DNA of 44,331 nucleotides from a virus, in IMG/VR virus record IMGVR_UViG_3300042876_000708, positions 1 through 44,331 of that record. One strand, given 5' to 3'. The stretch's first letter is position 1. Every line of letters begins with the position of its first letter. Shown piece after piece: positions 3,500 to 44,331 of this stretch. A program made the position numbers and the translations under genes. The notes beneath the pieces are model-generated. The model was not told the origin of the DNA. It did not search any database and saw nothing but the letters and a program-made list of their open reading frames with translations.

Positions 3500-3555
3500 G
3501 CGATCCCCTCGCCTTCGGGCCCGTACGTGGGCCACTCGGGAGGTTCGCCCGATGA
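3496..3555 (+). CDS. Possible 19-residue coupling ORF
   Basis: An ATG overlapping the stop of the preceding gene opens a 19-codon frame whose own stop overlaps the ATG at 3552. This stop-start arrangement matches the rest of the operon. It may therefore be translated mainly to deliver ribosomes to the next gene. No function can be read from so short a peptide. Confidence 0.3.
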   Translation: MSDPLAFGPVRGPLGRFAR

Positions 3556-4022
3556 GCGACGACCGCCTCGACGCCCGCGCCGACGTGCTCGACGCCCTCA
3601 CGGCCGCCGTGCTCCGGGGCAACCCCACGGTGGCCACGTGGGCCGGCGAAGAGCGCGCGTTCAACCCCGACGCGGCCTTCCCGGCGGTGTACGTGGGCAC
3701 GCCCCGCGGGTACCCCTCGGCGGTGTTCGGGCCGCTGCTCGAAACGCCGCCCGACCCGGCGGCCCGGTCGGCCACCTACGCCCGCGCCCTCAACGTGGCC
3801 GTGTACGTCACGGCCCGGGGCGCCACGGCCACCGACGACGCCGAGATGCTCCTCGAAGAGGTCGAGGCCGTGCTCGCGGGCCGGCCCGTCACCCTCGGGG
3901 GCCGAGCCTGCCGGTGGGCGCCGGCCGAGGGCGCCCAGGGCGCCGAGGGCCTCGCGGGCATCGTGCACGACGCCGTCCTCTACGCCCAGCACTGGACCGT
4001 GCGGCAGCTGGTGAGCCGATGA
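3552..4022 (+). CDS. Tail terminator, gpU-like
   Basis: This 156-residue protein has a start supported by GGGAGG at about 3538-3543. The pattern DVLDALTAAVLRG, then FPAVYVGTP, then LNVAVYVTARG with a two-helix stretch LLEEVEAVL, matches minor tail U-type proteins. These cap the growing tail tube and join it to the head. The length is close to lambda gpU (131 residues). Its place just before the tail-tube gene agrees. The first heptamer array begins seven bases after its stop. Confidence 0.65.
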   Translation: MSDDRLDARADVLDALTAAVLRGNPTVATWAGEERAFNPDAAFPAVYVGTPRGYPSAVFGPLLETPPDPAARSATYARALNVAVYVTARGATATDDAEMLLEEVEAVLAGRPVTLGGRACRWAPAEGAQGAEGLAGIVHDAVLYAQHWTVRQLVSR

Positions 4023-4028
4023 TGCCCC

Positions 4029-4119
4029 GTCACCGGTCCCTGGTCCCTGGTCACTGGTCACCGGTCACCGGTCACCGGTCCCTGGTCACTGGTCACTGGT
4101 CACCGGTCACGGGTCACCG
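4029..4119 (+). repeat. Heptanucleotide tandem array A (13 copies, GTCACYG)
   Basis: Thirteen contiguous 7-base units (91 bp) fit the consensus GTC[AC]C[CT]G, mostly GTCACCG, GTCACTG and GTCCCTG. The array lies between the gpU-like and tail-tube genes. Its consensus is the reverse complement of array B at 5326-5416, which also has 13 units. Neither array disrupts a gene. Confidence 0.95.
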
Positions 4120-4147
4120 CTCCTCACCCCTCACGCCTCACCCCTCA
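4120..4147 (+). repeat. Second heptamer tract (CNCCTCA, 4 copies)
   Basis: Four further 7-base units (CTCCTCA, CCCCTCA, CGCCTCA, CCCCTCA) follow array A in the same 7-base register but with a different consensus. The ribosome site GGAGG at 4149-4153 for the tail-tube gene begins immediately after. I see no hairpin with a T-run here, so it does not look like a terminator. Confidence 0.85.
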
Positions 4148-4161
4148 CGGAGGTAGCGACC

Positions 4162-5328
4162 ATGGCCGTCCTCACCCCCCGCACCCTCACCGCGTTCCTC
4201 GTGCCCGAGGTCACCGCCGGCACGCCCGTGCTCCCCGCCACGGCGACCGACACGATCCAGCTGCGCGAGGGCCTGAGCTTCCCCACCCAGCGCACCACCA
4301 CCACGGCGCTGCGCGAGGTGGCCCAGACCGCGAGCACCACGGGGCTCATCCGCAACCTGCGCGACGCGGGCAGCGTCACCATCCCCACCTACCTGCGGCC
4401 CCACGGCACCGCCGGGTCGAAGCCCCAGGAAGACCGGCTGTGGGCCGCGCTCTTCGGCGCCGGGGTCGTGGTGGGGGGCACCAGCGTCACGTACAAGCCG
4501 GCCATCGCCAAGAGCCCCCACACCCTGTGGCTGCGGCTCGACACGGGCGCGGTGATGTTCTGCTCGGGGCTCTACGTGAACGGCCTCACCCTGCGCCAGG
4601 GCGAAGACGGCCCGGTCGAGGCCGAGTGGCGCGCCGGGTTTCTGAAGCTCGGCTGGTGCGGGTCCGACACCCTGGCCGCCGCCGTCGACGGCACCCCGGC
4701 CCCCGCGGCCACCTGCACCGTGCACGACTCGGCCCAGTTCGCCGTGGGCGCCTTCATCCAGATCGGCACCGACCACAACTCGAACGCCGGCTACCGGATC
4801 ACGGCCATCAACTACTCCACCCACGTGCTCACCGTGACGCCGTCGATCTCGACCGACCAGGCCGAAGACGCCGCGGTGGTGCCGCTCCTGCCCACCGCCA
4901 CGGCCGTGGGCACGCCGCTCGATACCCGGCCCACCGTCAAGATCGACAACGTGGCGGTCTACTGGAAGAGCTGGGAGATCGGGGTGGACGAGCCCATCAG
5001 CGTGCTCAAGGAGGTGACCTCCGACCCGACGCTCGCCGACTACCCCACGGCTTTCGGCCGCTCGGGGGCCCGCACCGTCACGGGCAAGCTCGGGGCGGTG
5101 CTCAGGAGCGACGAGCTCAACCGCCTGCGCGCCGTCGACACCGACCGGAGCTTCATCGTCGACTTCACGCAGGAGGCCGCGGGGAGCCGCGTCACCCTCA
5201 CCCTGGCCCAGGGGCGGTGGAACGTGCCCGAGCTGAGCGCCGGCGACCCGGCGCTGGAGCTCACCATGGACTTCGAGGCCAAGGCCTCGGCGAGCCTCGA
5301 GGACGAGCTCGCGGCGGCGTACGTGTGA
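4162..5328 (+). CDS. Major tail tube protein, gpV-like
   Basis: This 388-residue protein is preceded by GGAGG with an 8-base spacer. It begins LTAFLVPEVTAGTPV and includes LREVAQTASTTGLIRNLRDAGSV and a C-terminal LTMDFEAKA, a layout typical of siphovirus tail-tube proteins that stack as rings around the tape measure. Residues about 175-255 look like an inserted beta domain (CTVHDSAQFAVGAFIQIG to VLTVTPSIS), perhaps displayed on the outside of the tail. The gene is bracketed by two inverted heptamer arrays, and its TGA stop is the first three bases of array B. Confidence 0.82.
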   Translation: MAVLTPRTLTAFLVPEVTAGTPVLPATATDTIQLREGLSFPTQRTTTTALREVAQTASTTGLIRNLRDAGSVTIPTYLRPHGTAGSKPQEDRLWAALFGAGVVVGGTSVTYKPAIAKSPHTLWLRLDTGAVMFCSGLYVNGLTLRQGEDGPVEAEWRAGFLKLGWCGSDTLAAAVDGTPAPAATCTVHDSAQFAVGAFIQIGTDHNSNAGYRITAINYSTHVLTVTPSISTDQAEDAAVVPLLPTATAVGTPLDTRPTVKIDNVAVYWKSWEIGVDEPISVLKEVTSDPTLADYPTAFGRSGARTVTGKLGAVLRSDELNRLRAVDTDRSFIVDFTQEAAGSRVTLTLAQGRWNVPELSAGDPALELTMDFEAKASASLEDELAAAYV

Positions 5329-5416
5329 CCGGTGACCAGTGACCGGTGACCGGTGACCAGTGACCAGTGACCAGTGACCGGTGACCAGTGACCAGTGATC
5401 AGTGACCAGTGACCAG
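5326..5416 (+). repeat. Heptanucleotide tandem array B (13 copies, TGACCRG), inverted relative to A
   Basis: Thirteen 7-base units (91 bp), TGACCAG or TGACCGG with one TGATCAG, start at the tail-tube stop codon. Rotated, the consensus is CRGTGAC, the exact reverse complement of array A. Because 7 is not a multiple of 3, the TGA in each unit closes all three forward frames within 21 bases. Confidence 0.95.
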
Positions 5417-5435
5417 TGACGCGAGGAGGGAAGAC

Positions 5436-5747
5436 GTGTTCGAGCGAAAGACGTACGACGTGGCGGCGGCCGGCGGCACCGTGAGCGTGCAGCTGCGCAC
5501 GGCGGCCGAGGTGGCCCGGCTCGACGCGCGCCACCGCAAGGAGGGGGTGCTCGACCAGGTGGCGTTCAACCGAGACCTCTTCGCCGAGTCGGTGGTGGGC
5601 TGGGCCGGCCCCTTCTTCGAGGGCCACGAGGCCAGCCGGGCCGAGGCCGAGAGCCTCTACGACGTGCACACCGACCTCGCCAACGAGGTGCTGGGCAAGG
5701 CCGTGCTCGCCCGCCGGGCCGACCGGGAGGCCGCCCGGGGAAACTGA
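5436..5747 (+). CDS. Tail assembly chaperone, gpG-like (zero-frame product)
   Basis: I chose the GTG at 5436 because GAGGAGGG at 5423-5430 sits just upstream; a longer frame from 5409 would begin inside the array tail. The 103-residue product has a beta start (YDVAAAGGTVSVQLRTAAEVARL) and a helical C-terminus. It ends right after a slippery heptamer. In lambda-like phages this protein and its frameshifted extension coat the tape measure before the tube polymerises. Position between tail tube and tape measure supports the call. Confidence 0.75.
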   Translation: MFERKTYDVAAAGGTVSVQLRTAAEVARLDARHRKEGVLDQVAFNRDLFAESVVGWAGPFFEGHEASRAEAESLYDVHTDLANEVLGKAVLARRADREAARGN

Positions 5748-20286: not shown

Positions 20287-21054
20287 ATGTCTACCCACCT
20301 CGTCCCCTTCGCCTACGACGACCGCCTCATCCGCACGCAACTGGACGAGGAGGGCGCCGTCTGGTTCGTCGCCAAGGACGTCTGCGACCTTCTGGGCATC
20401 CAGAACGTCAGCGACGTCATGGCCAAACAGGTGGACGACGACGAGCGGCGCTATGCCAAAATCTACCCACCTCAGCGTCCCGATGGCGTCGAGGTCAACC
20501 TGCTCTCCGAGTCCGGCGTCTATACCCTCATCCTCCGCTCCAACAAACCCGAGGCCCGGCCGTTTCGCCGCTGGGTCACCCACGAGGTGCTTCCGGCGCT
20601 GCGGCGCACGGGGGCCTATGCCGTGCCGCGGCCGGCCACGGGGCCCGAGGTGCTCGACCGCGCCGCCCGCGAGCTGCGGGGCGCCCGGCGCCTGGCGCGC
20701 GCCATCGGCTACCGGGGCGCCGACGAGCTCCGCCGGGCCAACGCGGCCGTGCTCGCCTCCACCGGGCTCGACTGCCTGGCCTACCTCCAGGTAGAGGCCG
20801 ACGAGCTCGCGCCCCCGCCGCCGGCCCCCGCGCTCGACCTCGTCCCCTTCGTCTCCCAGCGCTGCCGGCACGACCTGCGGGCCGACGTCGAAGCCACGGC
20901 GCTCTATCACGCCTACCGTCACTGGGCCCACCAACAGGGCGAGGCACCGGCCAGCCAGGGCACCTTCGGCCGCACCCTGCAGGCGCTGGGCTTCCGGCGC
21001 AGCCGGGGCACCGGCGGCCGCCACCGCTACCACGGCCTCGACCTCGCCCTGTAA
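20287..21054 (+). CDS. BRO-N domain antirepressor-like protein
   Basis: This 255-residue protein has residues 1 to about 115 as a BRO-N domain (VWFVAKDVCDLLGIQNVSDV, LLSESGVYTLILRSNKPEAR, FRRWVTHEVLPALRRTGAY). The C-terminus (ALYHAYRHWAHQQGEAPASQ, then TFGRTLQALGF) resembles the winged-helix tail of P4/D5-type primases. BRO-N proteins bind DNA, and many phage versions antagonise the repressor. It is the first gene of the rightward early operon, divergent from a repressor with no self-cleavage domain, which fits an antirepressor role. Confidence 0.82.
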   Translation: MSTHLVPFAYDDRLIRTQLDEEGAVWFVAKDVCDLLGIQNVSDVMAKQVDDDERRYAKIYPPQRPDGVEVNLLSESGVYTLILRSNKPEARPFRRWVTHEVLPALRRTGAYAVPRPATGPEVLDRAARELRGARRLARAIGYRGADELRRANAAVLASTGLDCLAYLQVEADELAPPPPAPALDLVPFVSQRCRHDLRADVEATALYHAYRHWAHQQGEAPASQGTFGRTLQALGFRRSRGTGGRHRYHGLDLAL

Positions 21055-35182: not shown

Positions 35183-35932
35183 ATGTCGATCATCTACACC
35201 CCGTCTGGCAAGGCCCGCGAGTACGCCGACCTGGCCGCCAACCTCTATGCCGGGTGCAGCCACGCCTGCGCGTACTGCTACGCCCCGGCTGCCTGCCGGC
35301 GCACGCCCGAGCAGTTCCGGCAGGCGGCTCCCCGGGCCGACGTGCTGGCCCAGCTCTCGCGCGAGGCCCCGGCGCACCGCGACGCCGAAGTGCACCTGTG
35401 CTTCACCTGCGACCCCTACCAGCCCCTCGAAACCTCTCTGCGCCTCACTCGCCAGGCACTGGGCATCTTCACCACCAACGGCGTCCGCGCCCGCATCCTC
35501 ACCAAGGGAGGCACCCGGGCCCTCGACGACCTGCCTTACTTGGTCGCCAACCGTGCCCTCTTCGGAGCCACGCTCACCTTCTGCTCGGCCAAAGACTCCC
35601 GAAAGTGGGAGCCCGGGGCAGCGCTGCCCTCCGACCGGCTCGAGGCCCTCAGCCAGGCCAAGGCCGCCGGCCTCGAAACCTGGGCGAGCTTCGAGCCCGT
35701 GATCGACCCGGCCCAAACCCTCGATCTCATCCGCTCGGTCGTGGGCGTGGTCGACGTCTTCAAGGTAGGCAAGTGGAACCACGACGCGCGCGCCAAAGAG
35801 ATCGACTGGCCCCGTTTCGCCCGCGAGGCCCAGCAACTTCTTGACGACCTCGGCGTGCGCTACTACCTCAAGGACGACCTTCGCAAGCATCTCCCGTCCG
35901 ATTCCTCTTGCGCCCGGGCGCAAGCGAGCTAG
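35183..35932 (+). CDS. SPL-type (COG1533) radical SAM protein
   Basis: This 249-residue protein starts MSIIYTPSGKAREYADLAAN. Its cluster motif GCSHACAYCYAP places Cys25, Cys29 and Cys32. FTCDPYQPLE, ILTKGGTRAL and a C-terminal FKVGKWNHDARAKEIDWPRF match the SplB-like radical SAM family related to spore photoproduct lyase. Phage copies have unknown substrates; DNA lesion repair or base modification is possible. It has its own strong promoter, unlike its neighbours, and is the second radical SAM gene in the genome. Confidence 0.85.
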   Translation: MSIIYTPSGKAREYADLAANLYAGCSHACAYCYAPAACRRTPEQFRQAAPRADVLAQLSREAPAHRDAEVHLCFTCDPYQPLETSLRLTRQALGIFTTNGVRARILTKGGTRALDDLPYLVANRALFGATLTFCSAKDSRKWEPGAALPSDRLEALSQAKAAGLETWASFEPVIDPAQTLDLIRSVVGVVDVFKVGKWNHDARAKEIDWPRFAREAQQLLDDLGVRYYLKDDLRKHLPSDSSCARAQAS

Positions 35933-43641: not shown

Positions 43642-44331
43642 ATGCGCCGACGCCTGTCCGAAGCCGCCATTCCCGCTGCCGCGGCCCTTGCCCTGGTGCT
43701 CTGGGTCGTGCTGCTGCCCGCGCCCTCGCCTTACTACGGCCCGTCGGTCTACGCCGCGATCAACACGGCCACGCCGATCACGAGCCTCTCTGTGCTGACC
43801 ACCCTGCCCGGCAACGCCCGCTGGTACGTGATCATCCCCACGGGGGGCGGCTGGAGCAACCGCGCGGTGTCGGCCACGACGGCGCTCGGCGGGTACCTCA
43901 CCACGGCGCCCGCCGGCGGGGGCATCACCACCGTCGACTGGTCCGCGGCGCTCACCACCTGGCCCTCGGCCACCGTGAGCACCACCGGGCACGCCCACTC
44001 GTCGTACATCGGCACGGTCGACTGGTCGGCCGCACTCACCACCTGGCCCGCCGCGAGCTACCAGCCCTACCTGGGCACCGGGTCCGCCGCCCAGTTTCTG
44101 CGCGGCGACTGGACGTGGCAGACCCTGGGCACGGGCGGCGGTGGCGGCGGCGACATGTTCAACGCCGACAACCTCTCGGGGCTCACGAGCTTCGGCCGCG
44201 CCCGGCTGAACCTCGGGCTCGGCGCGGCGGCCACCCTCGGGCTCGGCACCGGCGCCAGCACCGTGGCCGCGGGCGACCACGGCCACTTGGGCTACCTCGG
44301 CACCGTCGATTGGTCGGCCGCGCTCACCACC
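43642..44331 (+). CDS. Repeat-rich tail-fibre-like protein, 5' part (continues at base 128)
   Basis: AGGAGG at 43631-43636 precedes the ATG. The N-terminus MRRRLSEAAIPAAAALALVL then WVVLLPAPSP is an arginine-led hydrophobic segment, a signal peptide or membrane anchor. VDWSAALTTWP occurs near 43933, 44017 and 44305, and a longer module ending LRGDWTW near 44014-44115 is repeated near 218-325. The whole gene encodes 583 residues once the overlap is merged. Fibre-like composition is clear, the family is not. Confidence 0.8.
   Translation, partial: MRRRLSEAAIPAAAALALVLWVVLLPAPSPYYGPSVYAAINTATPITSLSVLTTLPGNARWYVIIPTGGGWSNRAVSATTALGGYLTTAPAGGGITTVDWSAALTTWPSATVSTTGHAHSSYIGTVDWSAALTTWPAASYQPYLGTGSAAQFLRGDWTWQTLGTGGGGGGDMFNADNLSGLTSFGRARLNLGLGAAATLGLGTGASTVAAGDHGHLGYLGTVDWSAALTT
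44205..44331. repeat. Terminal direct repeat, right copy
   Basis: Identical to bases 1-127; see the left copy. Delete one copy to obtain the circular 44,204-bp sequence. Confidence 0.93.

Follow-up and report, generated by a model that had tools for sequence, protein, structure and literature searches.

Organization of the locus

The window, i.e., the whole stretch of viral DNA that was analyzed, spans all 44,331 bases of IMG/VR record IMGVR_UViG_3300042876_000708. Based on its exact 127-nt terminal repeat (positions 1-127 are identical to 44205-44331), the assembly is most likely circular and complete, at about 44.2 kb. The phage has a GC content of 71.6% and is a temperate siphophage, as judged by the genes identified, which include a gpA-type terminase, lambda-type portal, S49-type head protease, capsid, tape measure, tail proteins, tyrosine integrase, BRO antirepressor and D5-type primase. 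The C-terminal part of the BRO-N antirepressor (20287-21054) was found to resemble the C-terminus of D5-type primases (PHROG matches, residues 187-253), and a radical-SAM-like gene (35183-35932; weak Pfam match, phrog_13321) was detected between the terminase and portal genes. Comparison of the terminase with four phyla to find the host gave only about 22-38% identity throughout. Searches of viral contigs with the tail tube, large tail protein, capsid and terminase returned no usable relative among the records covered, which may exclude this genome itself and those closest to it; a short contig (L132) had 36% capsid identity and no tail-tube match. In a phage collection, the tail tube was unmatched and the best terminase matches were at about 27% identity.

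Two tandem heptamer arrays, here termed A and B, were found to bracket a single gene of this phage (Table 1). Both are intergenic: array A separates the genes at 3552-4022 and 4162-5328, and array B lies between 5328 and 5436 and includes the stop codon of the bracketed gene. Array A is composed of nine GTCACYG, three GTCCCTG and one GTCACGG units, starts 6 nt past the upstream stop codon and contains no stop codon in any of the three frames; about 42 nt lie between its end and the start of the bracketed gene. The edges of array B vary with the register chosen. When read as TGACCRG, 13 units occupy 5326-5416 and are followed by TGAC to position 5420; when read as CRGTGAC, 13 units occupy 5330-5420, of which 12 are exact. 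The first TGA of array B (5326-5328) is the stop codon of the bracketed gene, TGA occurs in all three frames within 21 nt, and only 16 nt separate the end of the array from the start of the next cistron. The sequence-only reading had described two inverted 13-copy arrays around one gene, stop codons in all frames at the end of that gene and a second heptamer type after array A. All three descriptions agree with the sequence, the count being 13 units for A, 13 units plus 4 nt for B and four units for the second type.

Table 1. Positions of the arrays and associated features in the window.
Feature	Positions	Strand	Description and basis
ORF through array A, 44 aa	4022-4156	+	ATG overlaps stop of gene 3552-4022; ends 5 nt before tail-tube start; predicted from sequence only
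Array A, GTCACYG type	4029-4119	+	13 tandem heptamers, exactly 13 x 7 nt
Second, related array, CCTCACS	4122-4149	+	4 units; ends at tail-tube Shine-Dalgarno sequence; Tandem Repeats Finder
Shine-Dalgarno-like GGAGG	4149-4153	+	For tail-tube start at 4162; sequence; inside loop of predicted A:B stem
Probable major tail-tube protein gene, 388 aa	4162-5328	+	PF18906 and gene order
Array B, CRGTGAC	5326-5420	+	13 4/7 tandem heptamers, inverted relative to A; 95-nt block
Probable tail assembly chaperone, 103 aa	5436-5747	+	Next cistron; sequence and gene order, without family match
Slippery heptamer G GGA AAC	5738-5744	+	Directly before stop TGA; canonical -1 site
Tyrosine integrase, phage type	17266-18447		12 kb from arrays; sole recombinase seen

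The best inverted-repeat alignment of the two arrays pairs 4028-4122 with 5327-5421 (95 nt, 89% complementary, 1204 nt apart) and far exceeds every other inverted repeat in the window. Likewise, Tandem Repeats Finder scores were 115-169 for the arrays vs 70 or less for rows outside the array stretch. Arrays A and B are not due to chance. With 7-nt tandem units in several copies and few variants, they match heptanucleotide tandem repeats of the STRR kind. The position of the short ORF that runs through array A suggests possible translational coupling.

The product of the bracketed gene matched the Phage_tube_2 family (PF18906) at 25.4 bits, just below the curated cut-off of 27 bits. No PHROG match was detected for this product at 0.001, and a single-sequence structure model (pLDDT 31) was too poor for structure search. 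In the next cistron, a -1 shift at the slippery heptamer opens a cysteine-rich extension of about 106 codons (to 6058), and downstream of this chaperone pair lies a tape measure gene supported by PHROG matches. Siphophage tail modules usually have this order of tube gene, frameshifted chaperone pair and tape measure gene. Based on the PF18906 match below cut-off and the place of the gene before the frameshifted chaperone pair and tape measure gene, 4162-5328 is the probable, not certain, major tail-tube gene. The sequence-only reading had named it as such outright; family match and gene order favor that identification, and the score limits its certainty. The base composition of the gene was similar to that of its neighbors.

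Predicted RNA pairing of the arrays

When a 1600-nt RNA that included both arrays was folded, 84 bases of array A were paired with array B in the minimum-energy structure, and the A:B duplex was predicted at -178 kcal/mol compared to -41 and -34 kcal/mol for the arms alone. The predicted stem ends at the stop codon; its loop contains the ribosome-binding site of the tail-tube gene, and the site of the next gene falls outside the structure. Thus, in the predicted fold, the arms share one property of RNase III stalks, i.e., a long stable duplex that may form around a segment of RNA. No promoters or terminators above chance were detected near the arrays.

The order of unit variants was used to compare the two arms. 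In the observed arrays 84 of 91 positions were paired, as opposed to a mean of 82.8 when the units of array B were shuffled (p=0.22), and the best offset of A vs B was no better than in the shuffles (p=0.83); this comparison is weak, as the arrays have little unit variation. Based on these shuffles, the A:B pairing follows from the shared consensus, with no sign that variants in one arm are matched by the other. The order of variants also gave no support to the idea that the arms were copied from one another. The long RNA stem closing a loop with the tail-tube cistron, as proposed from the sequence, is upheld as a predicted fold, and selection for it is unsupported.

The heptamer in viruses and bacteria

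Three or more exact units were found in only 16 other contigs among 2.9 million viral contigs, and two intact GTCACYG arrays a gene apart were not detected in any of the viral stretches fetched. Eleven of the 16 contigs (L011, L165-L168, L170, L171, L173-L175 and L177) represent one phage family with a conserved CAGTGAC array of 4-5 units at one intergenic place with drifting flanks. This conserved array is possibly a regulatory or replication site. In a further viral contig (L176), two inverted heptamer arrays separated by 17 nt form a terminator-like hairpin at a gene stop (910-1009); this was the one tight heptamer hairpin of the - + type in viruses, and none of the + - type was found in viruses.

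In bacteria, a scan of GTDB genomes for five tandem GTCACYG units detected at least 120 stretches in about ten phyla which, among the matches listed, included Cyanobacteria, Actinomycetota, Pseudomonadota, Bacteroidota, Verrucomicrobiota, Planctomycetota and Desulfobacterota. Some genomes had dozens of array places on both strands, and most, as judged from the sampled Planctomycetota, had none. The reversed-pattern control of this search was uninformative for GTCACTG, as this unit is palindromic in its letters and reads the same backwards. The proposed kinship of the heptamer to cyanobacterial STRR repeats is borne out by these results, the exact unit being present in about ten phyla. The heptamer was also considered as typical of Planctomycetota; this was dropped, as the 3 matches among 199 sampled genomes were all from previously known carriers and the other 196 genomes had none. 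Heptameric repeats have been reported as over-represented in bacteria, with slippage proposed as their origin (PMC4692102), and TAACTGA heptamer repeats upstream of start codons have been read as regulator sites (PMC4679880).

Only 11 of 106 bacterial arrays were deep inside an ORF. Where a gene 3' end was 0-10 nt before an array, 15 arrays were TGA-oriented vs 2 open, and in the cyanobacterium Aliterella alone 10 vs 1 (a set that overlaps slightly with the former); ORFs in these orientation counts were called by a simple, uncurated rule. This TGA bias at gene ends is partly mechanical, because a TGA-oriented array supplies the stop codon and an array in the opposite orientation is read through. 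Arrays before gene starts had no orientation preference in the bacterial sample (21 vs 14, p=0.31). Array B is thus a typical gene-end case, and array A, open and just past a stop codon, is of the rarer sort.

Genes bracketed by heptamer arrays were also found outside this phage. In the array-rich Aliterella, inverted neighboring arrays are common: a pyrophosphatase-like ORF (L178; labeled by eye from its sequence) and a 523-aa ORF (L181) each lie between an upstream GTCACTG and a downstream CAGTGAC array, the same polarity as in the phage, and a three-gene group (L182) is bracketed likewise. Neighboring arrays in the stretches fetched were direct in 13 cases and inverted in 4, when degenerate arrays and viral contigs were counted. 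No publication on the inverted array pairs of Aliterella atlantica was found in the literature. In Geobacter metallireducens, short tandem-repeat sites have been described as mostly paired on opposite strands (PMC2700814). The sequence-only reading treated paired inverted arrays as unfamiliar round a virion gene; in bacteria, genes with such pairs are found, as in Aliterella (L178 and L181), and the paired sites of Geobacter are a further case of paired arrays. In an unrelated phage contig of 32% GC (L009, IMGVR_UViG_3300005573_000304), the major head protein gene at 1282-2382 (phrog_1005, 9e-102) lies between two directly oriented period-7 GTGAC arrays, with 13.4 and 6.6 copies, and other spacers of this contig contain heptamer arrays as well. 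Arrays on both sides of a major virion gene have thus arisen at least twice, once without a possible A:B stem. The inverted brackets of Aliterella and the direct bracket of L009 reveal that inverted pairing is neither unique nor required.

Discussion

The arrays most likely belong to an ordinary type of repeat whose placement here is unusual, and nothing found shows selection for their pairing. We rank first, and regard as probable, the explanation that ordinary heptamer arrays grew by slippage in two neighboring spacers of the late operon. Slippage during replication would have lengthened the arrays, which perhaps spread locally from spacer to spacer; they may have been retained since they lie outside essential sequence, and their inverted orientation would be incidental. 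A long RNA stem may form, yet it is probably not the reason why the arrays were kept. When two arrays are placed at random in the spacers of this phage, they lie on either side of the same gene in 7% of cases, and half of such flanking pairs are expected to be inverted; the arrangement by itself is thus mildly surprising. Given how rarely the heptamer occurs in viruses, the presence of two 13-unit arrays in a single phage of 44 kb calls for a common cause, and the arrays probably share one, in a host rich in the heptamer or in local spread. Counted against the passive growth of the arrays are the rarity of the heptamer, both in viruses and per host (as in the Planctomycetota sample), the bracketed gene, which is probably among those for the most abundant virion proteins, and the major virion gene similarly bracketed in L009. 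So is the phage family of 11 contigs, in which the array is kept amid drift of its flanks, hinting at function in some phages.

An explanation that we rank second, and hold to be rather unlikely, is that A and B pair in the late polycistronic mRNA as a stem of about 84 bp, whose loop would contain exactly the tail-tube cistron, including its ribosome-binding site. Cleavage of the RNase III type, or the stem itself, would separate the tail-tube message, stabilize it and fix its level independently of its neighbors, much as rRNA processing stalks do. The predicted fold and its duplex energy favor such a role, as does the predicted extent of the stem, which would reach only to the stop codon and include neither ribosome-binding site. 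In rRNA precursor, complementary arms separated by 1700 nt form an RNase III site, and RNAs of phages lambda, T7 and T3 are processed by this enzyme (PMC5371410 and its reference 10). By contrast, the unit variants are unmatched between the arms (of arrays with little variation), the direct arrays of L009 make such a stem impossible, long-range pairing competes with quick local folds, and an Rfam search returned nothing. It is, if anything, slightly more doubtful that a tandem-heptamer clamp, by RNase III cutting or by stabilization, marks off the tail-tube message and so keeps the tail tube at a high ratio relative to tape measure and chaperone. Ranked third, and improbable, is a role as regulator sites, in which a host or phage protein would bind repeatedly along each array, at the DNA or RNA level. 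Each array would then act by itself on how the adjacent gene is transcribed or translated, and the inverted pair would amount to two such sites. Retention of the array in the 11-contig family, the TAACTGA repeats before start codons (PMC4679880) and the paired opposite-strand sites of Geobacter (PMC2700814) are in line with binding sites. The absence of orientation preference before gene starts, the location of arrays at gene ends and in very different hosts, and the lack of a candidate protein argue against them.

Two other accounts are very improbable. Recombination between the inverted arrays (95-nt repeats at 89%) could flip the tail-tube gene, or the arrays could have brought the gene in as an invertible or amplifiable cassette. 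However, if 4120-5325 were inverted, an essential virion gene would be antisense to the rest of its operon, the circular assembled genome has this gene in operon orientation, and its base composition fits that of its neighbors. No recombinase match was found among the adjacent genes searched, the tyrosine integrase being the only such gene seen and 12 kb away. Thus, inversion or duplication of the gene, as raised by the sequence-only reading, received no support. It is similarly far-fetched that the repeats were collapsed or duplicated in assembly; this is a metagenome contig and repeats are hard to assemble, but the terminal overlap of 127 nt suggests assembly words longer than the arrays (91-95 nt), and A and B do not have identical units.

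If the arrays merely ride along, widespread bacterial heptamers also settle in phage late operons beside major virion genes, where they tend to abut gene ends and provide stop codons in all frames. The stem, if functional, would be a simple way to isolate one message of an operon by an expandable repeat and to tune the ratios of virion proteins.

The phage arrays can be compared to several known systems. As in the stalks that RNase III processes in rRNA precursors and in phage mRNAs (PMC5371410), complementary arms are separated by more than 1 kb and could enclose a single functional RNA segment; unlike these stalks, the arms are tandem repeats, and their pairing is a predicted one. In L009, a major virion gene (capsid) is similarly placed between two GTGAC-family heptamer arrays, by contrast in direct orientation, with other heptamer arrays present and at lower GC. 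The Aliterella atlantica loci (L178 and L181) are alike in that a single gene is preceded by GTCACTG and followed by CAGTGAC, with the downstream array at or near the stop codon, and differ in having arrays of 3-5 units around cellular genes of a chromosome. Bacterial heptanucleotide repeats (i.e., cyanobacterial STRR, TAACTGA of Beggiatoaceae (PMC4679880) and the GGGAATC type of Xanthomonas and Nostoc (PMC4692102)) are alike in their 7-nt tandem unit, mostly intergenic location, several unit variants and occurrence in unrelated bacteria. The phage differs from these in that its GTCACYG unit is found in a virus, as two long inverted arrays around one virion gene.
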